Assembly (NCBI GenBank): GCA_035578155.1
Contig: JAPWDM010000005.1
Coordinates: 14,598,832-14,662,831, forward strand
Direction of reading: 5' to 3'
DNA: 64,000 bases
Source: Brachynemurus nebulosus
Lineage: Eukaryota; Arthropoda; Insecta; Neuroptera; Myrmeleontidae
The number at the start of each line of letters is the position of its first letter. The stretch's first letter is position 1. This document shows positions 12,706 through 63,688 of the stretch, piece after piece. Below the pieces are notes generated by a model. That model ran no database searches, was not told the DNA's origin, and worked only from the letters and a program-made list of their open reading frames with translations. A program made the translations under genes and the position numbers.

Positions 12706-13086
12706 TTTCACATACTTTTTTCTATTATTATCACTATTTTTGACATTTTTATTACTTTTTAAAATAATATTTTTAAGTGTTCGTTTTTTTTTTCTGAATT
12801 AATTATCGTTTAAATTACCTTGTTGGTGGTTTCTATAGAAATAATTATGAAATATTTATTAAATGAAAAATTAAGAGGCGGCATTGCGTGTTTTGATTAA
12901 ATTTTGCGTGTTTTATTGTCAAAGTAACTTTCCACACGCAAAAAAGTATGCGGGAAGAGTACAGTGGGCAAACAGCTATTTTGCGTACAGAAATGTGTGC
13001 GCCAAGTTAGTACTTCTCCCGCACGAGTAATAAAAAATTAGTAAAATTGATGTTAATATAATTTTTCTTCTTTTTTCCTGTTCCAG

Positions 13087-13488
13087 AATGAATTAGATCC
13101 GTTACGTGGCCTATGCTATCCGGAAACGGATGTATTTATGCTCTGCTTTTCCGTGGTACGGCCATCCAGCTTTCAGTCGGCCTGCACACGTTGGGCGGAC
13201 GAATTGACCGGTTTCGGTGTACCGATTGTATTGGTTGGAACGCAGGCCGATCTTCGTGATCATCCGCCAACAATGCATGCATTGATGCAAAGTGGACAGA
13301 GTCCCGTGTCACAGAGTGACGCGCTACAATTAGCCGAACGTTTGAAAGCGCCTTACATTGAAACATCCGCGTTAACATGTAAACATCTTAAGGATGCATT
13401 CGATCAAGCGATACTCACCGCGCTACGCCGTAAACATCATTTGTGCCGTCGGACTCCGTTGTGGAGAAAATTTTGTTGTTTAAAATGA
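13087..13488 (+). CDS. RhoU: RhoU/RhoV-like small GTPase, terminal exon (partial gene)
   Basis: This exon encodes the last 133 residues of a Rho-family GTPase, a membrane-tethered switch that controls actin and adhesion. It starts after a TTCCAG acceptor, just where the switch II DTAGQ would end, and opens NELDPLRGLCYP, matching the Rho switch II helix. It continues with the strand VFMLCFSVVRPSSFQ, the guanine-specificity motif TQAD (usually TKxD in Rho; RhoU/RhoV have TQSD) and the G5-type SALT. The C-terminus is RTPLWRKFCCLK, close to the palmitoylated W-K-CC tails of RhoU/RhoV rather than a standard CAAX box. The insert helix region is present. The G1, switch I and DTAGQ exons were not recognised upstream and may be short, distant or outside the window. 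RhoU/V-type is well supported; the exact orthologue is inference. Confidence 0.85.
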   Translation, partial: NELDPLRGLCYPETDVFMLCFSVVRPSSFQSACTRWADELTGFGVPIVLVGTQADLRDHPPTMHALMQSGQSPVSQSDALQLAERLKAPYIETSALTCKHLKDAFDQAILTALRRKHHLCRRTPLWRKFCCLK

Positions 13489-39389: not shown

Positions 39390-39781
39390 TTAAAACCAAC
39401 TATTACTGTGCAACTGATCGTATTTCGCAACATTAAATATTATTGAATCATAAATCTCTTTGGCATTACGATTTTGTCCGTAATAATCAACAAATTCACC
39501 ATCAGGATTTACTAAATATATAATAATTGTATGATCCACAATGTAATCGTTATCGTCATCACGGGGTCCGGCACTGAAGTAGACCCGATATGATTTACAC
39601 GCTTGACGCACTTGTTCCTCGGTACCGGTTAAACCAATTAAACGATTACTAAATTCCTTTACGTACTTGCCAACAATTTCTGGTTTATCTCTTGCAGGGT
39701 CCACCGAAATGAATAACGGTTGCAAATCGACTTTATGTTCTTTATCATTATCTACAAAAAAATAAATAAATAAATAAATAA

Positions 39782-39829
<48 letters not shown>

Positions 39830-41604
39830 CAAGGTAATATTAATAAAAAATATGTTTCAAATTCTACCCTCCTTAGTCCAATAAAATTATGTTGGGAATC
39901 GTAAAACTTAGATACGCGAACTGGTGATTAAAAAAGTAACTACCTACTCGTATTACTAGTAGGCAAGATACCTAAATAATGCATAACACTATGCATACTA
40001 ATACAGTGAAAATAAAATTACTAAAGTAAATTTAATTTAGAAAAATAAATTTGCAGGTCAAATTATTTTGTGAAATTTTACAGTTGATAATTATGTAAAT
40101 TATTTAATTTTATCTAAGTTTCACTGACTTTTTTAACATTTTTAACGATGGCAGTGGAATTTTAACTGTCATTAAATTTTTTTTATTTAAAGCTTGTCAT
40201 CAGTTATTTTTGATATTTCCTTGTAATTTTAGTGTGTTTTGTGATCTGTAAAATATTTCTGATATGTATTTAATTATTATGGTGGCTTAAAATGTCTGGT
40301 GATAACTCCTGTGCTGCTAAATTTTGTTTAAATCATTCAAAACAAAATTTCAATTTATGTTTTTTCTGAGTGCCGTTTGATGCAAATTTGTAAGTATTAT
40401 TATAATTTGAATGCTTATGTAAAAATACGTTAAATAATAAATAATTATTAATATTTTATAATAATTCAGTTAATATTTTCGATTTCGACAGTGGTTGGTG
40501 CTAATAGGTCGTGACGATCTAAATTCTCGTGTTGAATACTGTCATCAGTTTCGCGTTTGCTCAATTCATTTTGAAGAAAGTTGCTTTTAGTTGTTCATAT
40601 AATTTAACATGGCCATTATCAACCTTCAATCTCACATGTACAAACACATACAATCACATAAGTAAAAAAGGACATACATAATTGTTTGTACTTATATCAA
40701 AAAAGGATAGAAAGTGCGTTTCGCTACTGCCTATGGTAATAATCTTTTATTTATACTGTGCCACAACGATACCCACTTGCCTAGGCCATCTATAATGAGT
40801 ACTTCCATCTACGAATACGATACGTGCGTTACTATTGATACAACCAATTCATATGTACCGATGGATACGAACATATTAGCAATACGAATGATGCGAGTAA
40901 CGAAATATATTTGAGAGTAACGATTCGGTACTTCGAACTTGTCAATGTACCCGTTACTCAGTAACGAATACATACGGTTTGCAACAGCACTAGTCGGTGG
41001 CAAAGTTTGAGCGTGTGGACGGACCTTAAGAGATTAGTAAAATACCTATTAAATTGACCACAGTCGCTAATTTCTCCAATTCTTCGGGACAAATATCCGG
41101 ACAATGAGTAAATCCAAAATATATTAAAAGCCATTTTCCAAAAAAATCTTCACTCTTTCGTAAATTTCCTTCTGAGTCGACTAGTTCAAAACGACCTCCT
41201 ATTGCAGCTTTTCCTAACATACGTTTGCGTTCCTTTGCAATCGCTAAAAGTTAAATATTTAAGTAAATTAGTTATACGAAACATTAAAATAAATTAATAA
41301 AATACCTAATTCTTTCTCTTTTTTAACATGTAACATAAATGCTAATAATCCACCGCCAATAAGAGCTGTTACTCCTAAACTCTTCCACGTTACCGGTCCA
41401 CCTTTACCCACTTTCGTATCTTTTGGTGGTATTTTTGACGATGATTCAACAAATCGAATTATTTGATTGATCTATAAAAAAATAATAATTCTAGTATTTT
41501 ATATACCTACGCAGAAATGTACAAAAATAATTGCACAGATCATTGCATACCTTTTTGTGATTGCGTAAATTCAACAGTCTGTTAATTTTTAAAATTTGTG
41601 ACAT
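39390..41604 (-). CDS. scox: SCO1/SCO2 copper chaperone for cytochrome c oxidase (complete, 4 exons)
   Basis: Mitochondrial inner-membrane protein that delivers copper to the CuA site of cytochrome c oxidase subunit 2. Exons (minus strand): 41604-41551, 41471-41306, 41243-41046, 39751-39390, with GT-AG borders and matching phases (0, 1, 1), giving 259 residues. The start is the only ATG in frame in exon 1 ([18 protein letters not shown]), a basic, matrix-targeting-like N-terminus. A membrane helix follows at about residues 48-67 (after KGGPVTW). The thioredoxin-like SCO domain shows the copper-binding CPDIC (Cys121, Cys125) after [16 protein letters not shown], and the third ligand His213 in IVDHT. 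Length and motifs are normal for the family. I cannot tell SCO1 from SCO2 by sequence; insects usually have one gene (scox in Drosophila). The third intron holds a microsatellite and a THAP-like remnant. Confidence 0.95.
39752..39830. repeat. (AAAT)n/(AAT)n microsatellite in a SCO1 intron
   Basis: Five AAAT-type units followed by about 17 AAT/TAA units directly next to the acceptor side of the last SCO1 exon. Length variation here could affect the polypyrimidine tract, which is short on the minus strand. Confidence 0.95.
40292..40590 (+). pseudogene. THAP-domain gene fragment, decayed, antisense in a SCO1 intron
   Basis: A first segment from ATG 40292 reads [22 protein letters not shown], then an in-frame TGA (40367-40369), then VPFDANL up to a GTAAGT-type donor at 40390. 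After a short AT-rich gap a second segment from a CGACAG acceptor (40492) reads [14 protein letters not shown], then [13 protein letters not shown], then TAG. Together these show the C-x4-C ... W ... C-x2-H zinc pattern of THAP domains (DNA binding, found in P-element-type transposases and many animal proteins). The stop codon and the phase clash at the apparent splice join indicate a remnant. The rest of the parent gene was not seen. Read-through or recoding cannot be excluded but is unlikely. Confidence 0.6.
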
Positions 41605-44261: not shown

Positions 44262-47200
44262 ATGGCTAATGTACGTGATAGTGATACATCATTGTGGCTG
44301 CATAATAAACTTGGAACATCGAACGATTCTTGGACTGGTGGTTCAATATGTTCACAATTAAATGCCGAAGTGTTACGGAATATCAAAGACTGTTTTCCAG
44401 ATCTACAGACTCAAGTCAAATTGAAATTACTTCTAAGCTTTTTCCACATCCCGCGCAGAAATGTAGAAGAGGTACAAAATAATTAAAATTAAGAATAATA
44501 TTCGTGTTAGTGGTAAAATTATGTGAAAAAATTTCGTTTATTTTCATTAAAATATGGTATTTTTTTGTAATTTATCTGTTTAATTGAATAAATATTAAAT
44601 AACTTTTTAGTTGTTTATAATTTCGTAAGTGTGTTACATTTACAAGTTTTGTTTATTATCTATGAAAAGCGCGTAAAATTATAGGAATTAATTTTAATCA
44701 TTATAATTATGTAATTTTTAATGTATTTTATTGAGTGATATAATATTTTATTTTCAATTTATTTCTTTAATAGTGGCGTGTGGAATTAGAAGAAATTATA
44801 GAAGTAGCTGGCTTAGATTCCGAATTATGGGTTTCGATGTTGGCTGAAGCTATGAAAACGTTTCCAGCAACTGGTTCTCTCAATACAGAAATTACAGATG
44901 CAGATGAAACAAGACCTATTTTTTCGGATTTAGTGAACGAATTGAGGAAATTAGTTAAAAGGCAGTCAGAAGCTAGTTTATTGCCTTTAGAATGTCATTA
45001 TTTAAATAAAGCAGCTTTAATTTCAGTTGTAAGTTATTAGTTATAATATTTTTTTACTTTTCATAAATAAATTACCAAAAAATTCAGATTTAAGTTTTTT
45101 TGACCATTTAAGGGGCTATATGCACTTAAATTGTGGAAATAGAACAGATTTCACTATTTTTTAATACTTCGAAATATTAATGCGATCGCACTGTCTGTCG
45201 TTCTTGCGCTGACATTTTGCACTTGACTCGTTTTTTTTTATTATTAGGTAGGCGAACAACCAGCGGCTGTAAAACATTTTAATATTAAGAAAAAACCAAA
45301 GTCTGTATATTTGCGAGCAGAACTTCTACAGAAAGCTGCGGATGCTGCATCGAATGCTAAAAAGTCTTCCGCTCCAGTAATTCCAATTCGTTCTCGGGGC
45401 ATGCCTAGAAAAATGACAGATACAAGTATGTAATTTTATATTTAAGATAGTTCTGTTGGCACAAGTCGCCATTATAATTATGTTTGTACGATACATTGTT
45501 TTGAAAGCTATTCAAAACTACTAGTACCAGCATTATTAACCCTATAGAATCATACGTACTCGTCAAATTGACGACCAAACTTCTCTACCTGCTTCAGTAC
45601 TACAACTTGCAGTTGCCTGCCTGCTCTGAAACTTCTGTTATCTAATTTATTTGTTATGATAACACAGAAGACGTATCAATTTTGTTGATAGTTGCTGTCG
45701 TTTTATTTATATTAAAATAGAGTGCGTCAATTTGATGACGATGTATGATTAACGTATGTTTTTTTAAAGATTTTGTACCTTACATATAAAAGTTTTCCTA
45801 ATTTTTCTGAAATTTATTAAAGATATAGATGTTATAATTAATTTATTCAATGATAATGATAATGTGAAAGATGATTACAGCTGTTTGATTTATAGAGGCG
45901 ACATAATACTGAAGTTTTAATATATTGAATGGAAAACTAAAGAATGGATTTCAAGTGACTTGATAGAAGATTAACAATTTATTTTATGGAAAATATTTTA
46001 ATTTTTATTATTTTTTAAGATCTTATTCGAAAAATTACTAACAAATTTTAGAAAATTTACAAATATGCCCAATCAGGAAATAACTACATATCTACGGGAA
46101 TATTTGTGACCGAGAAATTTCACATTCTGTAAAGTCACACATGTCCACCGACTCATAATAGTTCATAAATTAATTATATGAAAGACATGTCTTATGATAC
46201 AATTGATGTATTTACCTATTTTTTAATTTTTATAATAAAAATATGCTTTGATAAAAAGATAAATGCAATTTTTTAAAATATTTTGTTCACTTTTGTAGTA
46301 TTGTTATGTAAAAAAAGGTGTTTTTTGCAAATAAACTCTAAAATTCTCCGTAAAAAGTCCATTCGTCAAATTGACGACGATGTATGATTAACGTTTCTCG
46401 TAGACTAACGTATGATTCTAGCGTTAATAATACTGATGTTAATCATATAGGCTCACTACTTTGTCTACTTGCATGTATCAATAGAACCATCTGAAAGAAA
46501 TATAATATTAATTACTAAAAATCACCCCTTTTTTTATAGCACCCTTAAAAGGAATTCCAAGTAGAGTTCCCATGTCAGGCTTTCGTAGTTCAGGATTGGC
46601 GAGTGCTTCAATGGGTGGTCGACCCCCGTTATCACGACCGGCTGGTCGCAAAGATGGTGGAATCAAATTATTGGATATAACTGAACAACCACTGGGATAT
46701 GCAGCAGCGAAAAAAAGGAGGAAAATGCAAGAAGTTGAAGATGCCAAGAAAAGTACAGAAAATCAACCAGCACCCATTCTTAGTCCGGGTGGTTCGAATC
46801 CGGCACCATCTGCAACACCCGATTACGCCGTTGGTCTTACCGCAACACCAACTTATGCCCCAAGTACACCACAGCCCCCAAGAGAAGCAGGTAAAATTAT
46901 AATTGTATCGAAAATTTTTTGGTACACATTGTACAATGTACAATAATAGATCGGCTTGATTAAATTTATGATTTGACTCCCGTTTTAAAATTTATGATAC
47001 TTCAATAACATCGTTATTTGTCAAATTTTTAACCCTCGTGTATTTAGTATCAGAAAAATGTCTGTCACACATTCACCAAGTGCGTGTAGCACACACAAAT
47101 GTTTTTCCAATACAGCTAAACCTTTTTTTGTGTGGTGGATAGAGACCGCATAAAAAAATCGCACAAAAAAATATATTCAAAAATTTCATAAATAGTTATA

Positions 47201-48398
47201 CATAATATAAAAAGTATAGTTTGGTCAGATTGTAAAAAAAAACTTTTTTTGCAGTGTATCGGGACCGCTTAAAAAAAGTTTCATTGAAAATACATAACTC
47301 AAAACCTCACAATTTCCTTAGAAGTTGCTTTTCTAAAAAAGATAAAGTATTAATTTACACATGAGAACGTTTTACTTCATTTTTATAATATTATGAAAAT
47401 TCTGAAAAATACATCTGTAAAAAAAACTTAATACAGTCGACTCTCGTTAATTCGAAACTCGAGGAACTCTTAAAATATTATGAATTATCGAGTGTTTGAT
47501 ATATCGAATGATTCAAAATCAATCAAAATATACACTGTATTCAAAATCAATCAAAATGTATTTACAATCTTTCTGTCTCTTTCTCTCTGCAACTTTGAAT
47601 TGTCGTTTTGTTACGTGGCAATGATTTTTTCGTTCGAATTATCAAGTGCAAAAAAATGTATTGATTTGGTTCGAAATATAAAGAGATTTTGTAGGGAACT
47701 CGTGATAACTTTGAATTATCGCAGGTTTAAATTAACGAGAGTCGACTGTAATGCAATAATTTATATTCTTATGCAATGTATTGATTAAATTTTTAAAATA
47801 CCCCTGTCGCAGCATTCTGCATAATATAACGAATTTTCGTTTATAAAAATTAGTTTTTCTTGGAAACTAGTTGACATAGAATAATAGTTTATGAACCTTT
47901 TTTATGTAATTTTTTCTCCCCTTTCTAATGGTGTAAAAAAATTTCACAACAATTTTTGAATGACGGGAAATTTTGGCAAAAAAATAATTTTTTTCACAAA
48001 AAATATGTACCCCCAAAAACTATGTTCCGGGCATGGAACGTGTCTGGTTCACGAACTTGTCCAACGGTTTGGAACTTCCAACATTTTCACCAAATTTTGT
48101 AAAAGTAGAACATTTCGTTCGAGAGTTATCGTGCGGACACACACACACACACACATATATATTTAACCAGACACGTTCAATGCCCGGAACATAGTTTTTG
48201 GGGTACATATTTTTTGTGAAAGAAAATTAGTTTTTTGCCAAAATTTCCCCTCATTCAAAAATTGTTGTGAAATTTTTTTACACCATTGGAAAGAGGAGAA
48301 AAAATTACATAAAAAAGGTCTTTAAACTATTATTCTATGTCAACTAGTTTCCAAGAAAAACAATTTTTATAAACGAAAATTTGCTGTTATGCAGAATG

Positions 48399-48469
<71 letters not shown>

Positions 48470-51400
48470 TGAATATTATTTTCAGTTTCTAGGGACCTCA
48501 AAACAAACAAAACAAATTTCTGTCATAGTCCTGGACTCAAGTCGCGTCATGACAGTGACCGTAATAGCTGACTTTTCGATTCGAAAATTCGCTAAAAACC
48601 ATTAAAAATTAATTTTTTCAAAGAAAGTTATTATAGTTAATGTTTAATTTTCTTACTTTCTCTTGCTTTTGATTTACATTATACACTTTAATGGAAATTT
48701 AAAAAAAAATCGCACAAAAAAGGACCGCATAAAAAAAGGTTAATAGCTGTATTTTAATATTTTCCTTTTTAAATTTTGAATCGATTAAAAAAAAATCAGC
48801 CACTAAAACGCTTGTGGTCACTTTTTGTTAAAAATTAGGGTTAAATCGCTCGCCCAATGTACATACCGTGAATTGTACCCATTTTTATACTTTTTTTTGT
48901 CTTTTTTTTTTTTTGACGAAAATTTGATTTATTTCAGCGGCTACAACAATCTCATCACCACCAGCTAGCATCACCGGAACGTGTACGACAGCAACAAGTC
49001 CGTCAACAGACACGGTTACTACAACACCACCAACTCCGACATATGTTCCTCCGGCAACGCCTGTTACACCGAAGACAGTTACAGTTGCCACGCCGGTAAT
49101 GCCTCCATTAACGCCACAACATACGGCACAACAGTTCAACGAGTCTTCCAGTAGTAGCGCAACAACGCCGGCCACTGTCACCACAACAGTTGTAACAACA
49201 ATCAACCCGCAACCGTCGGCTGGCGCTCAACCAGTTCGTCATGCACATGTTACACAAATTCGAATACAACCGCCACCGGCCGCAACAAATCCTCTACAAC
49301 GAAAGGGCTTGTCTCTAACGGTAATTATATTTTATTTATACCACAGAATAATTCAGAAACCAACTTGCTATCTCTGTACTAGTGATACCAGTGTAGACAA
49401 AAAATCCCTTCCATTTCTCCCCATTAGGTAGCGGTTACACTGGATACGAATTCATCCGAAAATTCATTCGTACGAATTCGTACGAGTTTATACGAATTAA
49501 ACAAATGCATACATTTAGACATGCGTGGTTACATTGCTTACGACTCGTTCGTACGAGCTCGTACGACTTTTTGATACGACCAAAATATTTTGTTTTTTGA
49601 TGTGAATTCGTTCGAAAAAAATGCAATGGATATAGAAAAAATAACTATTTTTGTTGAACAAAGGCGGTCTTTAAGGGCATCAAAACATTAATATTATCAT
49701 AATAGAAATTTAAATAAGAAATTGTGGAATGAGGTGGCAGAGGAAATGTTTAGATAATTTTTTAATTAAATATATTACACTATAATAAAGCTAACCTAAG
49801 CTAACAAAAACATTTTAAGTAGGGTAAAAGCCCCCTTTGTGGAACGGTATCTAATTATGAACATTTACATATTAATGAAGTTATTTCTGAAAGAAACGTC
49901 TGATAACAAAAATTATTACTAATAGAATGACTGTTTTTCAATTTAAATTCACTTCGCGTTTAAAGTTTCCTTACTTAATTAAAGAAATAAATATGTAAAT
50001 GTCAAAACTGTTCCAGTATTAGATACCGTTCCACAAAGGGGGCTTTTACCCTATGTGTAATAAAAAATTAATTAACTAAATATTGAAGTTGAAATTCAGT
50101 AGATTTTAAAATGTAATTGAATGTGACTTGCGACATGTTCAAGTATTCTAAAAATTTCTGTTCGTCTTGAAAAATTTCCTCAAAGTAATTCCAGAACTCA
50201 GCTTTTTTTGCTCTACATGATTAATAAATAATCGTTAAATAATCGTTTACCCAGAATTAGGTTTTTAAAGAAAAATTTTTTTTCTCATAAATGGAAAGAT
50301 CATATATAAGTTTTATAAGAAAACTCTTTTTATTTTTTTTTTTAAACGTAATAATTAAGAAGTTATATTAAATTAAAAATAAATTTTCAAACTTAGAACC
50401 GATAACGGGCCGATAGTTCACGAGCGCTTATGTGACGTAATAAAGGTTATATGGCCTGAACATAGCGACATTAGTGCCTTTTTATTTTCAAACAGATTAT
50501 AGACCAAGAGCTACTGGCCGATTTGCGATGGTCATTTCAACACGCGTTAAATTAAGAAGATAGAATCTTGGATACTTACTCTACACAGAAATTCAGTTCT
50601 GGCAAGCCTATTCGACTCAACCCGGCTGAATAGGCTTGCCAGAACTGAATTCTTATGTAGAGTAAGTAGTATCCAAGATCCTATCCTCTCAATTTAACGC
50701 ATGTTGAAATGACTATTGCAAATCGGCCAGCAGCTCTCCTACTATTATTGTTGCTATGAAATTATTGTTACTATGAAATTATTGTTGCTCTGAAATTCTT
50801 GTTTCTATCCAAATTATTGCTTGCTATAAACTTCACTGTCGAAATATCGAAACTAAAGAAATATCGAGCTTGTTTTGTACCACTTTGTGATAGTAGTACA
50901 AAAGTAAATCCGGCAAAAATGTCCCTCAAGATTTTAAACGTCGAAATCAATGAAGCAACCATCAATAATTTTTCCTGCTAAATTTTAATAATTTTGACAC
51001 TTTTGACATATACCTTTATGACGTCACAGACATCGCGATCTTTTTTTTTTTAAAAAAGAAGGGAAATAATATACATAAAAAAACATAACAATAAATAAAT
51101 AAAATTTTTAAAAATTTTTTCGTATTGATTATCAATATTATTTATGATGTAGAATTGAAATAAAATAAAAAAAATGATATTTATTTTTTATTCAAAAACC
51201 CAATTGTAGATAGCGGGTTTCGAAATTAGAGGATTCACATAAAGATGCGAAAAAAATATAAATTTTACTATAAATACAGCAAATTTTTCTCTATCTAACT
51301 CGGTTTTAAAAGTACTGTCAAAGAGTTTGCAGGCAGACAACTTTCCAGAGCGTGAAAGTTACTTGAAAGTACTCTCAAATGAACGCGTAGCCTAATAGTA

Positions 51401-51765
51401 TAGTTTGCGATTTATATTAATCAAATTTTTTTTCTCTATTTCAGCGAGAACAAATGTTGGAAGCTCAAGACATGTTTAGAACCGCGAACAAAGTGACAAG
51501 ACCAGAAAAAGCGTTGATCCTTGGATTTATGGCTGGTTCACGTGATAACCCGTGTCCACATCTCGGTAATATTGTCACAATTAAACTCTCCGAGAACCAG
51601 GAGAATGTGATACAAGGCGATAACACGATCTTAACAATGACCGTCGAGACACACTTCCAGATGAATTACAACACCGGCGAATGGAAACGAATCAAAAAAT
51701 ATCGAAAGACCGAACCGATACAGAATAATTTACAAACGCAAACACCTGCCGCAGCACTGACTTGA
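44262..51765 (+). CDS. Nelf-A: Negative elongation factor subunit A, NELF-A (complete, 6 exons)
   Basis: Subunit of the NELF complex, which with DSIF holds RNA polymerase II in promoter-proximal pause in the nucleus. Coding exons: 44262-44471, 44774-45028, 45248-45425, 46540-46890, 48938-49320, 51445-51765. All GT-AG joins keep phase, giving 565 residues. The N-terminus MANVRDSDTSLWLHNKLG and the following helices (KLKLLLSFFHIPRR, PLECHYLNKAAL, VKHFNIKKKPKS, LRAELLQKA) match the conserved HDAg-like NELF-C-binding domain. TTPLKGIPSR and KLLDITEQ are family motifs. Residues about 300-455 are a Thr/Pro/Ser-rich linker. The last exon (LTREQMLEAQDMF, KVTRPEKALILGFMAGSR, HFQMNYNTGEW) is the conserved C-terminal domain. 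Start chosen at the first ATG matching the family; an upstream in-frame TTG is not a start. AATAAA at 51862-51867 may end the transcript. Confidence 0.96.
45540..46423. mobile_element. TTAA-flanked piggyBac-like element in NELF-A intron 3
   Basis: Left end CCCTATAGAATCATACGT and right end ACGTATGATTCTAGCG are inverted repeats flanked by TTAA (45536-45539 and 46424-46427). A second inverted pair, CGTCAAATTGACG, lies just inside each end. TTAA target and CCC start are piggyBac features. The interior has a decayed AT-rich sequence without a full transposase. Confidence 0.75.
47434..47748. mobile_element. Tc1/mariner (pogo)-like MITE nested in family A
   Basis: Ends CAGTCGACTCTCGTTAATTCG and, inverted, CGAGAGTCGACTG with flanking TA (47432-47433 and 47749-47750). 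The CAGTCGA(C/T)TCTCGTTAATTCGAA type of end is typical of pogo/Tigger-like elements. Interior repeats of 'tcgaattatcg' type follow. The 102-codon frame here is not a transposase. Confidence 0.8.
47815..48398. mobile_element. Long fold-back element (arms about 240-265 bp)
   Basis: The left arm runs from 'gcattctgcata' through 'cttggaaactagttgacatag' to 'tgttccgggcatggaacgtg'. The right arm returns in reverse complement from 'cacgttcaatgcccggaaca' to 'tatgcagaatg' at 48398. The loop includes a (CA)n tract. The arms are highly similar, suggesting a recent insertion. An (AT)n tract adjoins the right end. Confidence 0.85.
48400..48467. repeat. (AT)n microsatellite
   Basis: About 67 bases of pure AT dinucleotides directly beside the fold-back element in NELF-A intron 4. 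Confidence 0.97.
49333..49640. repeat. Family F end plus TACGAATTCG-rich repeat in NELF-A intron 5
   Basis: 49339-49428 is the inverse of the family F end near 42255-42340 ('ccacagaataattcagaaacc', 'gatctacactggtatc' type). Next to it, 49432-49640 is dense in TACGAATTCGTACGA variants and starts 'agcggttacactggatacg', probably part of another MITE. The first base block lies directly after the exon 5 donor. Confidence 0.55.
49822..50051. mobile_element. TA-flanked MITE, family G copy 2
   Basis: Terminal repeats 'gggtaaaagccccctttgtgg' and mirror, with TA at 49820-49821 and 50052-50053. The interior contains 'aacggtatctaat' and 'ctgttccagtattagataccgttcc' as in the copy at 17168-17407, with the middle inverted relative to that copy. 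Located in NELF-A intron 5. Confidence 0.8.
50311..50740. mobile_element. Dispersed repeat (family E) containing a 105-bp-arm palindrome
   Basis: 50311-50455 ('agaaaactcttt', 'acttagaaccgataacgggccga') is matched in inverse at 63860-64000. It adjoins a long palindrome whose arms (about 50510-50612 and 50627-50735) share 'ggccgatttgc', 'atcttggatacttactctac' and 'cagttctggcaagcctattc'. It lies in NELF-A intron 5. No coding capacity. Confidence 0.7.
50856..50930 (+). pseudogene. Possible THAP-like N-terminal fragment in NELF-A intron 5
   Basis: The frame reads KKYRACFVPLCDSSTKVNPAK, with a CFVPLC (C-x4-C) start like THAP-domain N-termini (commonly CFVPxC followed by a short polar loop). The later W and C-x2-H parts are not found downstream within the open frame, which ends at 50981. 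It may be a repeat-borne fragment or a chance match. Confidence 0.35.
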
Positions 51766-53374: not shown

Positions 53375-53630
53375 TTTATGTCCAAGCAGGCCTTCATTTT
53401 GAAAAGAATCTCACTCGTGCCCCTAGTGGTGAAATTAGGAACTGTATCAGATAGAACATGTAGGTATACGTCTAATTGGGATAGAAACGCATATTGTACG
53501 AATTATGTGCGCATTTTTAAATTCCTGTGTCCAAAAAACGTCAGTATGTAATGTTCTACATGATACAGTTTCTGATTTCACCACTAGAGGCGCGATTGGG
53601 AATCTTTGCGTCGCAACGATTTAATTGACT
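53375..53630. mobile_element. MITE family D copy 1
   Basis: Left 'ctcgtgcccctagtggtgaaattagg', 'aactgtatcagatagaacatgta'; right 'tacatgatacagtttctgatttcaccactagaggcgcg', forming inverted repeats of about 50 bp. The same architecture recurs at 63466-63688, immediately after a BubR1 exon. Confidence 0.7.
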
Positions 53631-55358: not shown

Positions 55359-55983
55359 TTATAAAAATAGATCGTCATCTAAAGATTTTGGTGGATCCAA
55401 ATAAATATCCTCAAATACATCTGGAACATATAGATCGGGTGATACTCGACTGTAATCAATATCGAATTCATCATCGATTTCTATCTCTGACGGTACACGT
55501 TTCATTGTTTTTAACGGTTGCCGTGGACCTGGTGTTATCATACAATTTAATATATTAACAATATCGTCACTATTAATTCGTTTATGTTTCGGTAAAATAT
55601 CTTCAAAATCATCGTCAATCTCTTTAAATTCAATTTTATCCGGAACGTCATTTTCCTTGTTAAACAGCGATTTGTTTTTCAGTTCAATCTTAGGTTTGCA
55701 TTCCGTTAATTTCGTCGTATTTGATATTGGTTTACAGTCTGCCAAAGGTTTACGTACACTCAAAGCTCCACCAGATTTTAAACGGATTGGATTTTGTTCA
55801 ATTGCTTTCAAATGTACAAAATAAATTTAAGTTTGAGAATTATAATTTTATCAAAACGTTTTAATACTTACGTTTGAGTGTCTGATAATTATCGTGAGTA
55901 ATATTTTTTCGAACGGATTTTGAAATATTTACAACTGGAGTTTTTCCAGCTGAATTAAAGATGTCAAATACGTGATTAGACAT
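55359..55983 (-). CDS. Securin-like KEN-box protein (complete, 2 exons, 185 residues)
   Basis: Candidate securin, the separase inhibitor destroyed by APC/C at anaphase. Exons (minus strand): 55983-55872 and 55804-55359, donor GTAAGT, acceptor after GAAAG, phase kept. The start is MSNHVFDIFNSAGKTP. Visible in order: RKPLADCKP (residues 55-63), an RxxL destruction-box-like motif similar to the RKALGT box of vertebrate securin; LFNKEND with a KEN box (87-89); DDFEDILP (102-109), an acidic stretch ending in Pro that could be a separase pseudo-substrate; MITPGPRQPLK (126-136); and a strongly acidic C-terminus (VPSEIEIDDEFDIDY, DDDLFL). Length fits securins (about 200) and the basic-N, acidic-C layout fits too. 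Securins are barely conserved in sequence, so this is inference; another APC/C substrate is possible. It lies head to head with BubR1. The acceptor's pyrimidine tract is weak. Confidence 0.6.
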
Positions 55984-56686
55984 TTTTTAAAATTTTATTT
56001 CAATCACCAAATATTATTTGTATATTCGTTTCAATGGCTACCTTTGCTTCCTTTTAAATTCTATTACTCTCTTCAACTTTTAGCGGTTAATAAAAATATT
56101 AACGATTGATTGGTTCGTTACGTTTATATAAAAATTTCAAATATTATACTTTGTCAAATCAAAAAAATTAATAACATACATTTGTCAAATTTGCACAAAT
56201 TTATGTTCAGTAGCTACGAAAATTTTAATTATTTTTATAAATATCAATAATACAAATTTTAAATTTTAATCTAATTAATTAAAGTGGCAAAAGTGATTCA
56301 ATTTTTAAAATTATAATTTGTGTTAAATGAACTATAGCAACAATTTATTTTTAACAAAGTATAAAGGCAAAATTAAATCAGTATTGACAACATTGTGATA
56401 TAATAAAGTTAAATATCTCAAAACTTAATTCTTTTCAACCGAAATATCATCGCCATAGAAAAAAATTTCTATCCACTCTAAATAATTTTAACCGTTTAAA
56501 AATTGAGCAGTTTAACTGTAGCTTATGTATTTAATAATAATATATTCATTAAAAGTATACAGATTTTTACAATATTTTGGAATTAATTTATACGTAAGTA
56601 TTCAATATAATTAAAAAATTCTGTTACACATGCAATCGTTGACAGGTCATGGATGATTATTCATGTTTTTTCTCAATAGATATGAT
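55984..56686. promoter_or_regulatory. Candidate bidirectional promoter between the securin-like gene and BubR1
   Basis: 703 bp separate the two divergent start codons. The stretch is AT-rich and, unlike most intergenic DNA here, contains no recognisable transposon. A possible splice acceptor (TTTTTTCTCAATAG, ending about 56679) just before the BubR1 ATG suggests an untranslated first exon of BubR1 within it. No core promoter element can be assigned with confidence. Confidence 0.45.
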
Positions 56687-59600
56687 ATGGATTTCGATTT
56701 AAGTAAAGAAAATATTCAACCCTTGCGAGGGGGCCGTAATGTTTCGCAACTTGGGGCTGCACTACAGGCTCAGAATAATTCAGAATATCAAAAAGAACTT
56801 CTACAGCAACGAGAGTATGTAAAATATTTCTGTTTAACATCCTTGAATAACTCAAAATTTATACACCCCAGTTGAAATAAGTTAAATTTACCAAATTATT
56901 TTTAAAAATAATCACTTTAAGATAATTCATTTTAAATTTCAAATATTTAAATTTGTTGATAAGTCACTTAAATGTCAGATAAAACTTAACATGACAATTT
57001 CTTACTGACACGAATGTTTACAGTTTTCTTTCTAGCTCTTTCAATATTTACCGTGTTCTCAGACAAGTCTTCGAACTTATTTTTGATATTTTTTTCAAAT
57101 AGCTTTGACCTTTTAGTGTGCCCTTATAAGGACTAATCTTAGAAATAGCAAAAACGGATTCGATATGTCTGTTTTCTGTACACCTCAGAAATGTTACTAA
57201 ATTTTTTTAATATAATTGCTCAAACTATTTGGAAATTCTCAGTGAAATAGGTCAAGGTTATACATTAACTGTAATGTACAAATGATTTGAAAAAATTTAG
57301 AAATTTAAATTCTAAGTTTATTCAAAACTATACTTAGGCAAATCAGCATTGACATACATCACTTTTTGAACTGAAATTCTCAAACACAAATGTATGTAAA
57401 AAATATAAATAATGTTTGCTACGCTACTGGTCTGAGAACCGAGTGTGGTAGAGTAACGCTTCTTTCACATTGTACGGTTTTCGCCGCACGGTAAAAAACC
57501 GTACGACTTTTTGCCGTGATATTGTTGCTTTCACATTGCACGGTTTTTTGCCGTTGTAAACTGAATATCTTCATTTAATTTGCAACATTACACAAGTAAC
57601 AAGTATGATTAAAGTTAATTCTATAAATCAGAGGAAATAGAAAATAAGATTATTTATAATCACACTCTTTCAAGACCTGAAAAATGACAAAAATAAATTT
57701 TTTAACTATTTTCGGACGTTTACAAGCTCCTTTGATTAATTTCTTGGCGAACTTAACGTAAAAACACACAATTTGGAAATTACATACAATCTATTAAAAT
57801 GGTTGTTACCACATTCAGCATTAGTTTCATCCATTTCACAAATAAAATTAATAATTAACATAAAATTCAACAAAATAATGTTACTGCCGTACGTTAAAAA
57901 ACCGTCAAATGTGAAAGCATCAATTTAATTACATACACTACTGAGTTAAAAACGCCGTACGGCAACCGTCAAGTGCAGTGGCAAGAGACGGCTGCTACAC
58001 GGCACGGCAACGGCATTTTGCCGTGACCGTGTAATGTGAAAGGTCCAATGCTCTTCTTCACTCCACTAAAAAAATGTGATCGTACGGTTTTTTGCCGTAC
58101 GGCAAAAACCGTATAATGTGAAAGGAGCGTAACGGAATTTGAACTTTTTTATACTTTTTTTGTTTCACTTTAACACGTTTGATTTGCCATAAACTGTCAC
58201 ATATGTTTGTATGCGTTATACAAGAAAACTCTGTGGTGCACACTGAGTACTGAATCGAACATATTAACATATGTTTCCTAGAGATACCACAGGCATTAAA
58301 TTGTGAAGTATGACTCCATTTTATTAAACCCAACTTGTAACCACGGAGACTTGTTTATAAGTATTAGATAAACCATTAAATTAATGGTTTGAACGCCGTT
58401 AAAGTACAGTAGAATTTTAACTAAAAGAAAGAGCATAAATTCCTCTTAGTTACAATTTATCTCTTTTTATTGAATATAAAAGATATATAATTATCTCTCT
58501 TTCATTTATTTGTCAGTGTTGCCTTGGTTAACATTTAAAATATTTGTAATCCCCTTACCTCAGAATTCCCCTTAAAAAACTTTCTTTTAGTTAAAATACT
58601 ACTGTAATTACATCAGTCAATTTTTTTGCTTCAATTTCTTAATGTATTTGTAATACACAGCATTCTCTCTAATCTATTCTCTCCTCAATAATGGTGCATG
58701 TATTTAGCTAATTGGTATTAATTATCTCATTTTGATTAGAAGTGTACAATAAATCTATACTTACATTTGTTTAAGATATTTGCATATCTACTTACTATTT
58801 CTTACTTACCACTTCGATGTGAACGAATTACTAGGTTTGCCAGGATTTAACTTAAAAGTTTCCAATAGGGTACTTGACTGCAGTTAAAAAAATAATTCTA
58901 AATGTTTTATTTTTACGTATTAACTAATTAATTTTTAATAAATTTTTGAAAATCATAAAACAAAAAAAACTGTTCAATTTTAAATGAATAAATTGGCGCG
59001 AAAAACGACCCACCATGGTGACGTATGCGATGACGTCACATTTTGATGCAAGCATATATTAACGGTTCATTCATATCTACAGACACTGAAGTCACAGACA
59101 CGTATCGTGGTAGACACGACATTTTCAAAAGTATTCATATATACAGACAATTAGCAGACAGACACAGACAGTAGGTACTATACGTATAGTATGTATCAGT
59201 GAATTACAAAAATTAAATTGCAGCAGATCTGACAACGTTATGTGATTTATAGTGAAGATTTTTCCGAAATTGCATTATTGGAAGAGGAAAAATTTCCTTT
59301 CTTGCTGCATACTTCTGTTGATCATCGCCAAATTTCTTATCAGTTTAATTGTGGAGAAATGTACATAACCTAATAAATTCGATTAAATGTTTGTTATTAA
59401 TATCTTATATACTTAACAGAAAACGTTTACTTTCTAACAAATTCGATTAATTTTTCGTTGTTTGTACTTCATAAAACAAATACAATGAAAATTTATAAAC
59501 AAATTTTAGGAATTTTGTTTGTACGTTTCGAAACATGCATTCATATTAGCCGCGCAAAGTCAACAGACACGTTCCAGCACAGACAAAATATTCTTCTCGA

Positions 59601-62600
59601 GAATACTGTGCGGACACTGTCTGTCACTGTACGTGTCTGTGCGTTTACGTTACGCTATAATATGAATACGCCCATAAGAAAAACATTAAACAATATTTGT
59701 CGTGTCTGGCACGATACGTGTCTGTTACGTTTAGTGTCTGTAGATATGAATGGACCTTAATGTGTTCACACTACTGTAACGTTAGGAAACATTTTGCAAC
59801 ATAAAATTTTCAACAAAAATATATTTTCAATAGATGTTAGTCTTTTTGTTTTGCAATATTTAGCAATTACTTATTGTGTCCAGTCGAAATAATATTTAAC
59901 ACACGCGTAAAAATTATGCATCAAACTACAATAACTATTTACATCATTTACATGTGCCTTATCTTATTTATGATATTTGTCATATTTACTACAAAATATG
60001 ATGTCATTTTAATGTAACGGCGCGTTTTTACTCATTTAAATGAAGGTTAAAAATTTATCATTTTCAAAGTAGAATTTTTAAAGAACTAAAGAATATTTTT
60101 ATTTGTCACTACTAAAATTTGATATATTTACGAGTAATACATAAAATTATTTAATATTTAAAACAAATTTTGAATACAATCAGGTACTCTAAAAAATTAA
60201 AAAATATATATTTTGAGTTTTGTGTTGATAGATTTGAGATAGAAAGGCTTCTGTAAATTCAGAAATTATAAAGCTTGTTTACACGTATTAAGTTGTTAAG
60301 AAATTAACTAAATTTTTAATGACCTAATGCATGTGAACGCTACATAAGTAATGATGTCGGATGATTAATCGATTAGTCGGTTTAGTCGACTAATTTTATT
60401 TAAATTTAGTCATTTTTAGTCGACTATTTTACCCACGAGTAAAACACTAAAATAATTTTTTTTTAAATAACTAAACGACTAATTTAATTATTTATAAAAT
60501 TCCAAAAAATGAAAACTAAAAATGCTTGCTTGTATGATTTTCCATTCTGGAAAAGGTCTAATGGTTACCCTCCTGTTCATAAATTCGACTGTAACTTTAG
60601 TCCATTAATCGATTATATGCTCGATATTTTCGACTAATGACTAATTTTAGTCGATTAACCGCCTAACTGCTCGTTGGTTCGACATTGCAATACGTGAGTA
60701 GACAATAGTGATGTCGAATAATTAATCGATTAATCGGTTTAGTCAACTAATTTTGTTTACTTTTAGTCACTTTTTAATCGACTATTTTACTGTCGACTAA
60801 ATGACTAAAATGACTAATATTTTTTTAAAAAACTAAAGACGACTAATTTAATAATTTTTCTGCATTATTTATGACTCGAAAAAATGAAAACTAAAAATTA
60901 TCATTATTTATGATTTTTTACTTTTATGTGAATAATACATTATATAATATGTAATTTTTTTCTTTTTTTTAAAAAAAATAATAATAAAAGTCAATAATTA
61001 AATTTAAAACATTGTTTTTGAAAGAGTTACAATAGGTTACCCTATTCATGAATTCGACTCAAATTTTGTCGATTAATCGACTATTCTATGCTCGATATTT
61101 TCGACTAATGACTAGTTTTGTCGGAAAAACAACTTTAGTCGATTAATCGATTAACTGCATCTCGACTCGACATCACTAGTAGACAAGCAAAATAGAATTC
61201 CGTCTATTTTTCGGTTAAATTGATGGGCGTGGCCAATCACTTGATATAACGTTCTTATATTTTACAGAGAATTTGAAAATGCGATTCGCACGTACAAAGG
61301 TCCTGATCCATTACAAAATTGGTATAATTATATATCATGGATTGAACAGAGTTATCCAAAGCATGGCCACGAGGGAAATTTAGCCAAGTTGCTGGAAGAC
61401 TGTTTAGGCACATTTGAGAATGATACCCGTTATAAGCAAGATAGACGATTTTGTAAATTATTCATAAAATATATAGATATGCAAGAACAACCGTTACAGT
61501 ATTGTCAACTATTATATAACAATGGCGTTGGTACTGAATGCACTGATTTATATAAAGCGTGGGCGTATTATTATGAAGCACTTGGCGATTTCAAACGAGC
61601 CGATCATATATTTAAGTTAGGATTTCAAGCGAATGCGCAACCGCACGAGGATTTATTACAAGCACACTGGTACGTATTAATATACCACGGGGGTTCCCAA
61701 AGTGCAGCGTGCGAACTCAAAAAATGCCGCCCGTGATGTTGGATTGTCTGCAATCTCCAATTCGTAAATTTTTTTCAAAAAACCCTATAAATCTGACTAG
61801 ATTACAGTTGAAGATTTTTCCGTAAAAAATATTAAATATTATATGGAATATTAGATTTTATATATCAGTGGTTCTCAAACTTTTTAGTATGCGACCTCCC
61901 TTTGTACTTAAAAAATTTAAGGGACCTCCGAAATATGTAGAAATGGTTAGGAAATGTGTATAAATATCTAGAAAGTGGGTACGTGATCTGTAATTAGTTG
62001 TTTCTGTGACCCCACGAAATGTTTTTCTGGGTGGCGATCGACCTGGAAAACCTGGAAAAGTCAGGAAAGGCGAGAGTGTCAACTGATAGTTTTTCTAAAA
62101 AGTTTTTTTTTTTTTTTTTGCTCTTCAGTTGTATTTTTTGCCACTAACGAGCAAAAAAAAGGGGTCGGCAAAAAACTTTATTTTTAGAAATTATTAACAT
62201 TTAAACAATATTTTTTCAGAGTAGGCCCTGGAATTTTATTCAGAGTCAGGGAAAAGCCAGGGAATTTTGAAATTGGTTTTCAATCGCCACCCTGTTTTCG
62301 CGACCCAAACCTTGAGAATCACTGTTATATATCAATGGTGTTCAGCCATTTTTACTATGCGAGTTCTTAAGTCAAAATCACCAAATTCGCCCAGGAAATG
62401 TGATTTAATTTCCGTCGGCGATTTTTCTGTGGTCTCTACAATTCTTGATTTTGTCAAAAATGACAAAATACTATCGAAAATTTATCAGTAGCTTCAAATT
62501 TTATGTTTCCAGCATCAGAATGACGATTTTTGAAGCCTTTAAAAAAATTTAGTGTTCGTGATGACGTCATCAGGATCATTTTTTTTAATTAATAGTTTCA

Positions 62601-63457
62601 AAAATGATACGAGTCAGATCTGTTAGTAAAATATGGTTAATATGAGTGTCAAAATTTTCATTTGGAATTTTTCATTTGGAAAAAAGACCAAGTTTGTTTG
62701 GAAAATATGACATTTTCTGGGTGTGTGTTAGTTTATGTAAATAAACGCATTTTTTTTGTCAAATATTTTGATATTTATTTACCATTTGGCTCGCTGACAC
62801 AAAAATTTGGGAATCCCTGATATACATACACTATACTTCTTATATAATGAACTTCCGGTTATAAACGATCTCAAAAAAGTTTCGATAGTAAAATTCGATT
62901 ATAGTGAACTTTCTTCGGTTACGTTTTTGAAAATTTTAGAGGTAATATATTGAAAAATGATTAGTTATTGATGAATATGTTTGGTGTTTAGCAATTTTAC
63001 GTTAGCTGTTGGGCGACACGTTTTACAAGGTGGTACAGACAAAAATCAACTAGAAGAGAAACGATTAGCGTTAACGTCCCTACGACCATATAAATATAAA
63101 AACCGTAGTGTCGTTCCAAGTCAACGTAGTGGTTCAAATGTAGTCGATTATTTACCAGGAATAGTAAAATTAGCCGTAGAACCTCATCGAAATCATAATT
63201 ATCGAGTAGAAGTTTACCAGGTGAGTACTTTCTTTAAAAAAGTCTTAAATATTTTATTTAAATAATAAAAAAAATCATTTAGGATGAAGAAGAAGAATAT
63301 CCTGGTCCCAGCCAAGCGGCTGTAAAACCAAAAAGTATTTTAGACAGTGTTACAAAACGTGAAGCTGTTCATAAAGAAAACATGTTAAAAGCAGGACCAT
63401 GGAATGGTGCTCTGTCAAAGAAGAGTATATTACCTAGTTCTAGTTTGAAATTTACAG
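56687..63457 (+). CDS. BubR1: BubR1/Mad3 mitotic checkpoint protein, 5' part (4 exons; continues beyond window)
   Basis: Part of the mitotic checkpoint complex that blocks APC/C-Cdc20 until kinetochores attach. Exons: 56687-56814, 61268-61669, 62992-63220, 63283-63457, GT-AG and phase-consistent, giving 311 residues so far and ending in phase 1. The N-terminus MDFDLSKENIQPLRGGR carries the first KEN box (7-9) in the Mad3/BubR1 context SKENxQPLR. Exon 2 is the TPR-type Bub1/Mad3 homology domain: DPLQNWYNYISWIEQSYP, LYKAWAYYYEALGDFKRADHIF. Exon 4 has the second KEN box (284-286) followed by AGPWN, as in vertebrate BubR1. An acidic DEEEEYPGP opens that exon. Whether a kinase domain follows cannot be seen. 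Start chosen at the ATG giving the family N-terminus. Introns 1 and 2 are packed with transposons; intron 3 is 62 bp. Confidence 0.95.
57457..58129. mobile_element. PIF/Harbinger-like MITE in BubR1 intron 1
   Basis: Ends CGCTTCTTTCACATTGTACGG and, inverted, CGCTCCTTTCACATTATACGG, flanked by TAA on both sides (57454-57456 and 58130-58132). Subterminal copies of 'acggttttttgccgtacgg' and its inverse occur at both ends and internally near 57.9-58.1 kb. No transposase frame. Confidence 0.8.
58133..59062. other. BubR1 intron 1, repeat-derived AT-rich DNA
   Basis: The segment at about 58210-58390 ('gtggtgcacactgagtac', 'gataccacaggcattaaattgtgaagtatgactccatttt', 'cttgtttataagtattagataaaccattaaattaatggttt') is the inverse of about 42950-43110, a further dispersed repeat. 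No exon recognised. Confidence 0.5.
59063..59756. mobile_element. TTAA-flanked element rich in CAGACACG motifs, BubR1 intron 1
   Basis: Left end 'cggttcattcatatctacag' and, inverted, right end 'ggtccattcatatctacag', flanked by TTAA (59059-59062 and 59757-59760). Both sides continue with repeated ACAGACACGTA/TACGTGTCTGT motifs. The 100-codon frame at 59458-59760 lies inside it and shows no domain. Confidence 0.7.
60349..60690. mobile_element. hAT-like MITE, older copy
   Basis: Ends TAATGATGTCGG and, inverted, TTGCAATGTCGA, with subterminal 'attaatcgattagtcggtttagtcgacta' repeats. Flanks TACATAAG (60341-60348) and TACGTGAG (60691-60698) match at 6 of 8 positions. It is related to and directly precedes the copy at 60706-61178. 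Confidence 0.7.
60706..61178. mobile_element. hAT-like MITE, younger copy
   Basis: Perfect 12-bp ends TAGTGATGTCGA and TCGACATCACTA, with an exact 8-bp duplication GTAGACAA at 60698-60705 and 61179-61186. The interior repeats 'tcgattaatcg' and 'tagtcgacta'. The right end is only 90 bp from BubR1 exon 2. Confidence 0.92.
61866..62324. mobile_element. hAT-like MITE in BubR1 intron 2
   Basis: Ends CAGTGGTTCTCAAACTTT and, inverted, CAGTGATTCTCAAGGTTT, with an exact 8-bp duplication TTATATAT at 61858-61865 and 62325-62332. The CAGTGGTTCTCAAACTTT end is a common animal hAT terminus. No transposase frame. Confidence 0.92.
62333..62819. mobile_element. Second hAT-like MITE abutting the first
   Basis: Starts CAATGGTGTTCAGCC and ends 'ttgggaatccctg'. 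The preceding TTATATAT and following ATATACAT match at 6 of 8 positions. The middle is related to the fragment at about 8150-8490. The two elements share one flanking 8-mer. Confidence 0.65.
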
Positions 63458-63465
63458 GTAAATTT

Positions 63466-63688
63466 ACTAGATTGGTGACGCAGAGCTTCTCACTCGCGCC
63501 TCGGGTGGTGAAATTAGAAACTGTATCAAGTAAAACATGTATAAATCTAGTAAGTCGCACATAATTTTTGTAGAAAACCTATATTTCTATTACCAATTAA
63601 ACATATACGTATATATGTTTTACTTGATACAGCTTATAACTGTACCATCAGAGGCGCTCGCGCAATCTTTGCGTCGCCAGTAAATTAT
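63466..63688. mobile_element. MITE family D copy 2, just after BubR1 exon 4
   Basis: Left 'cgcctcgggtggtgaaattag', 'aaactgtatcaagtaaaacatgta'; right 'tatgttttacttgatacagc', 'ctgtaccatcagaggcgct', forming inverted repeats. Matches the copy at 53375-53630. It starts within about 10 bases of the exon 4 donor. Confidence 0.7.

Follow-up and report, generated by a model that had tools for sequence, protein, structure and literature searches.

The window analysed here, a stretch of DNA of 64,000 nucleotides, carries two genes placed head to head, a small minus-strand gene that is a candidate securin and a plus-strand gene coding for BubR1. This arrangement, with 703 bp between the two genes, had been described in an earlier note on the same DNA and was confirmed from exon placement, since the genes are divergent and their start codons (55983 on the minus strand, 56687 on the plus strand) are 703 bp apart. 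The small gene has two exons and a coding length of 558 bases (185 codons and the stop). The features that the earlier note had listed for its 185-residue product, an RKPL motif, a KEN box and an acidic C-terminus, are all present, with RKPLAD at residue 55 and KEN at residue 87. The first 11 residues of this protein (MSNHVFDIFNS) are identical in a protein of Chrysoperla carnea, and its spliced ...LKP... aligns with ...VKP... in the same protein. The BubR1 exons have GT-AG borders, keep one open frame and code for 312 residues inside the window; no exon was seen beyond 63457 up to the window end, and the gene is expected to continue past it. The features of the locus are as follows.

55359..55804, minus strand: securin-candidate exon 2, stop included, with RKPLAD (residues 55-60), KEN (87-89), DFEDILP (103-109) and the acidic tail
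55590..55610, minus strand: codons of the pseudosubstrate-like DFEDILP (residues 103-109)
55805..55871, minus strand: securin-candidate intron, GT-AG, 67 bp
55872..55983, minus strand: securin-candidate exon 1, ATG at 55983, residues 1-37 and one base of codon 38
55984..56686, no strand: gap between the two start codons, 703 bp, 21% G+C, candidate shared promoter
56594..56679, plus strand: candidate BubR1 5'UTR intron, proposed from a GTAAGT donor, a T-rich tract and a CAATAG acceptor
56687..56814, plus strand: BubR1 coding exon 1, carrying KEN1 (SKENIQPLRGGRN)
61268..61669, plus strand: BubR1 coding exon 2, most of the Mad3_BUB1_I region
62992..63220, plus strand: BubR1 coding exon 3, carrying the RxxL motif RLAL (residue 201) and the beginning of the ABBA-like VEVYQD (residue 249)
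63283..63457, plus strand: BubR1 coding exon 4, with KEN2 (residue 284) and AGPWN

Several repeat elements lie in and around BubR1. Intron 1 contains a 681-bp element (57453-58133) with 54-nt terminal inverted repeats that are 89% complementary (GTAACGCT...) and with further inner inverted repeats, which suggests a transposon of the MITE or foldback type, as well as a second inverted-repeat element (59064-59756), another likely MITE, whose arms pair at 93% (59064-59090/59730-59756) and 90% (59091-59121/59698-59728). Directly behind exon 4, an inverted repeat with 48-nt arms (63496-63657, 83%) resembles, by eye, a stretch at about 53400-53610.

Other genes were also recognized in the window. 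A NELF-A gene, with a probable extent of 44774-51765, lies on the plus strand, its NELF-A_N domain being matched at 44774-45037 (Pfam, E=1.3e-34). An open frame that ends at a stop near 51765 and has no Pfam match looks like the last exon of this gene, in which case the 3' ends of NELF-A and the securin candidate would face each other. Pfam matches were also found for a SCO1/SenC exon on the minus strand (39393-39839, E=2.7e-26) and for an exon of a Ras-family small GTPase on the plus strand (13057-13485, PF00071, E=6.1e-17), while the search of the window against Rfam at gathering scores returned no match.

Identity of the BubR1 gene

The plus-strand gene had been called BubR1 in the earlier note, and this assignment, made from protein and motif comparisons, can be regarded as certain for practical purposes, being well supported by a PF08311 match, by KEN1 and KEN2 and by the relatives found. 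In the Pfam search, PF08311 (Mad3_BUB1_I) was matched at E=9.8e-42 by residues 40-161. A protein search with the 312-residue fragment as query, in which full-length BubR1 fell outside the candidate length limits, returned 9 relatives among 879 candidates, with a best E of 2.5e-86 and insect species names on five of the nine. Residues 1-19 are identical in P0002 (Callosobruchus analis), P0003 (Anoplophora glabripennis) and P0004, and P0009 differs from them at one residue. The Mad3/BUB1 region is common to the window protein, P0002, P0003 and the partial P0005 (Rhamnusium bicolor); P0002 and P0005 also have EKR.ALTSL and KEN.LK.GPW in common with it. An alternative in-frame start upstream, at 56663, was rejected because P0002, P0003, P0004, P0007 and P0009 begin MDFDLSKE, in a comparison in which P0008 and P0010 begin otherwise, P0005 is partial and P0006 was left out.

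The motifs of the fragment are a KEN box at residue 7, an RxxL at 201, the ABBA-like VEVYQD at 249 and the second KEN at 284. VEVYQD fits a loosened ABBA pattern only, and the strict form, Fx[ILV][FHY]x[DE], has no match in the BubR1 fragment. Human BubR1 has its ABBA motif at residue 272 and KEN2 at residue 305 (PMC5179498, cited, like the other articles below, from partial text). The distance from the ABBA-like motif to KEN2 is thus 35 residues in the window protein vs 33 in the human one, as calculated from those residue numbers, which fits the BubR1 type. In Bub1-type proteins, according to the same article, both the N-terminal KEN and the ABBA-KEN-ABBA cassette have nearly always disappeared. 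The second ABBA of that cassette would fall beyond the last BubR1 exon found, the C-terminal part of the protein, where a kinase or pseudokinase would be expected if retained, being outside the window.

The gap and the divergent arrangement

Divergent pairs with start sites less than 1 kb apart account for 31.6% of D. melanogaster genes (PMC2670823), a figure that counts transcription starts, the 703 bp in the window being the distance between start codons. As a class these pairs are described in that source as strongly co-regulated, and those of insects as fully conserved more often than random pairs and as less conserved than vertebrate ones. Since divergent pairs are common in flies, the layout of the locus is ordinary, and only the partners are suggestive. 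The sequence of the gap suggests a BubR1 5'UTR intron running from GTAAGT at 56594 to a T-rich acceptor ending at 56679; if this intron is present, transcription of the two genes would start at sites closer than 703 bp.

Nineteen patterns were tried on the gap. One strict CCAAT box was found at 56115-56107 on the minus strand (0.02 expected), along with three Myb-like YAACSG sites (0.38 expected; Poisson 0.007 uncorrected, about 0.13 over the 19 patterns) and four TATA-like matches (1.8 expected). TTTGAA sites were fewer than expected, and no E2F, DRE or motif-1 site occurs between 55984 and 56686. With 19 patterns tried, neither the CCAAT nor the Myb count is significant after correction, and the Myb count is a lead only and not evidence of cell-cycle control.

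That the gap is a true bidirectional promoter, timing securin and BubR1 together in G2/M, seems to us rather unlikely. The distance of 703 bp, which the possible BubR1 intron may shorten as measured between transcription starts, would suit such a promoter, as would the CCAAT box and the three Myb-like sites before correction, and both the co-regulation of divergent pairs as a class and their conservation in insects above that of random pairs (PMC2670823) are in its favour. However, none of these motifs remains significant over 19 patterns, E2F, DRE and motif-1 sites are absent, TTTGAA is below expectation and divergent pairs are commonplace in the fly genome. Furthermore, co-expression is a general tendency of Drosophila mitotic genes (PMC2537813) and by itself would be no proof of a shared promoter.

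We lean towards the explanation that gene rearrangement brought the two genes together by chance, that each has its own independent promoter and that they are functionally unconnected. This agrees with how frequent divergent pairs under 1 kb are in flies and with the lower conservation of insect pairs compared with vertebrate ones (PMC2670823), and the pair was selected in a scan, a procedure that favours striking coincidences. The choice of partners is harder to reconcile with chance, since, if the small gene is a securin, both genes act on one switch, which is unlikely for any single random pair.

In Drosophila, BubR1 is located on 2R at 42A, a map position for which the literature search gave no paper naming BubR1. 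Since pimples is located on 2L (PMC7642946), the two genes are not paired in the fly, and their pairing is not general in insects. In the collection of papers searched, none joined securin, BubR1 and a bidirectional promoter. Support for a shared-promoter mechanism is low, and we consider it very unlikely that in Neuroptera securin and BubR1 form a conserved bidirectional unit in which one promoter sets the ratio of the inhibitor to the substrate that it protects.

Relatives and candidate degrons of the small protein

A homolog of the small protein was found in one of 125 candidates, the uncharacterized Chrysoperla carnea protein LOC123290762 (E=3.2e-26, 39% identity over 99% of the query), and a profile search of 957 candidates gave two relatives, LOC123290762 and a 109-residue fragment, P0011. 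The one named relative makes it probable that the window belongs to a lacewing or a near relative; the beetle relatives of BubR1 do not count against Neuroptera, since a Chrysoperla BubR1 of full length would have been too long to be a candidate in that search. As these were the only two relatives among 957 candidates, nothing in sequence connects the protein to an insect securin established by experiment, e.g. Pimples. A profile of the small protein had no match among solved structures. Literature searches found no paper naming the C. carnea locus, and the matches for a Chrysoperla securin look, by their titles and the starts of their abstracts, like uses of the word 'securing'. Geminin, cyclin and shugoshin have Pfam models, and the identity of the small protein with any Pfam family was rejected, as neither of the two members scanned gave a match at E up to 10. 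A missing Pfam match is a weak criterion, since securins diverge extremely and are difficult to recognize with bioinformatic methods (PMC4852461).

The C. carnea protein resembles that of the window in its N-terminus, its D-box, the sequence EDILPKHKR and the C-terminal VFED..L.PPK; it differs in having no KEN box, and 10 residues before VFED have no counterpart in the alignment of the two. The D-box-like site, RKPLAD in the window protein and RQPLAD in its relative, shares PLADC in both sequences that reach it (2/2). KEN is present in one of the three sequences covering its site, that of the window, and therefore cannot carry the identification as securin. In 20,000 shuffles of the window protein KEN arose in 8.6% and RxxLx[DENQ] in 13.9%. 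KEN alone was rejected as proof of a securin for its frequency in shuffles and its presence in a single sequence, and the D-box alone for its frequency in shuffles. With KEN missing in both relatives, degron content may change fast within this family.

The pseudosubstrate-like motif and the comparison with human securin

The small gene is probably a securin, a reading that we favour over others and that depends on a motif not named in the earlier note. The label of securin candidate given there was fair, and the identity is made likely by a pseudosubstrate-like motif together with an order and spacing like those of the human protein; the KEN box on which that note had relied is absent in both relatives. 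Human securin has its degrons in the N-terminal part and its separase-binding part in the C-terminal one, where the likely pseudosubstrate, 113-EIEKFFP, blocks the active site of separase (PMC6858450). Separase substrates follow the rule (S/D/E)xExxR, and securin has a large hydrophobic residue at P1 instead of the Arg (PMC10317155). The window protein has 103-DFEDILP, which agrees with (S/D/E)xExx followed by a large hydrophobic residue and Pro, and the C. carnea protein has 100-TYEDILP, with Thr rather than S/D/E at P6; EDILPKHKR is identical in all three sequences (window, C. carnea and P0011).

The window, C. carnea and human proteins each contain a single match to the pattern [SDET]-hydrophobic-E-x-hydrophobic-[FLIMYW]-P; among 20,000 shuffles it arises in 0.7% (window) and 0.3% (C. 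carnea), rates that serve as a guide and not as a test because the pattern was fitted after the sequences had been seen. A looser pattern arises in 6.4% and 3.7% of the respective shuffles and is also found once in BubR1 (DEEEEYP, residue 254). Another stretch of the small protein, PSEIEIDDEF (residues 142-151), was considered as the pseudosubstrate and dropped, because the EIE within it is not shared by the C. carnea protein. Folding of the exon 2 product without an alignment, which often yields a poor model anyway, gave a mostly unstructured chain with a mean pLDDT of 54 and one 12-residue helix at residues 116-127, just behind DFEDILP.

Direct comparison with human securin was less favourable. 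Local alignment scores were not above chance, being reached by 183/1000 shuffles for the window protein and 668/1000 for that of C. carnea, and global alignment was marginal (45/1000 and 99/1000, respectively). The exosite NxLxPhiE is absent from both proteins. Conservation of LPE extends over vertebrates and part of the lower eukaryotes (PMC6858450); matches to [LV]P[ED] in the window protein are VPD at residues 91 and 164, neither at the human position, and the C. carnea protein has none. Given the divergence of securins, these failures lower confidence in the identification without excluding it.

Alternatively, the small gene may code for a conserved neuropteran cell-cycle protein that is an APC/C substrate but not securin, e.g. 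a lineage-specific mitotic regulator, in which the D-box-like site would confer instability after metaphase and EDILPKHKR would bind another partner. The lack of significant similarity to human securin, of a Pfam match and of NxLxPhiE, and an LPE that is not in place, all suit this alternative, as does the 14% of shuffles in which RxxLx[DENQ] is expected. We nevertheless regard it as somewhat unlikely: the protein agrees with human securin in the pseudosubstrate-like motif, in how far this lies from the D-box and in having a basic and an acidic half, and extreme sequence divergence is a known property of securins (PMC4852461).

For the favoured identity, securin, we infer a protein that binds separase and is degraded through APC/C. 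Such an inhibitor would be disordered and would attach to separase through its acidic C-terminal half, with DFEDILP entering the active site as a non-cleavable pseudosubstrate in which Leu stands where a substrate has Arg, and APC/C-Cdc20 would destroy it via the D-box at anaphase. BubR1, with its N-terminal KEN, RxxL, ABBA-like motif and second KEN, would belong to the mitotic checkpoint complex, by which APC/C-Cdc20 is restrained, and the two genes would sit head to head as an ordinary kind of divergent insect pair. Taken as a whole, this account of securin and BubR1 seems likely to us.

The usefulness of the locus lies in the candidate ortholog, the gene pair itself being of an ordinary kind. 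Securins diverge so much that sequence comparison hardly detects them (PMC4852461). With its readable pseudosubstrate motif, the lacewing-type candidate provides a starting point for finding securins in other insect orders, and it helps to annotate the uncharacterized Chrysoperla protein LOC123290762. Should the arrangement with BubR1 turn out to be conserved, the locus would provide a simple natural example of dosage coupling within the spindle checkpoint, which is speculation at present.

Among known systems, human securin (PTTG1, PDB 7nj1 chain B) resembles the window protein in its general plan. The N-terminal D-box starts at residue 55 in the window protein, 56 in that of C. carnea and 61 in human securin, and the pseudosubstrate-like motif, DFEDILP in the window protein and EIEKFFP in the human one, starts at 103, 100 and 113, respectively, with 83, 78 and 90 residues from there to the end. 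All three proteins are basic before the motif and acidic after it, so that a basic front half and an acidic tail of similar length are common to the window and human proteins; disorder, which is predicted for the window protein, may be another likeness. Unlike human securin, where KEN precedes the D-box, the window protein has its KEN after it. Drosophila Pimples, a protein that is also small in size, offers an analogy in function, as the role of securin that it fills in the fly is the one proposed here for the window protein.
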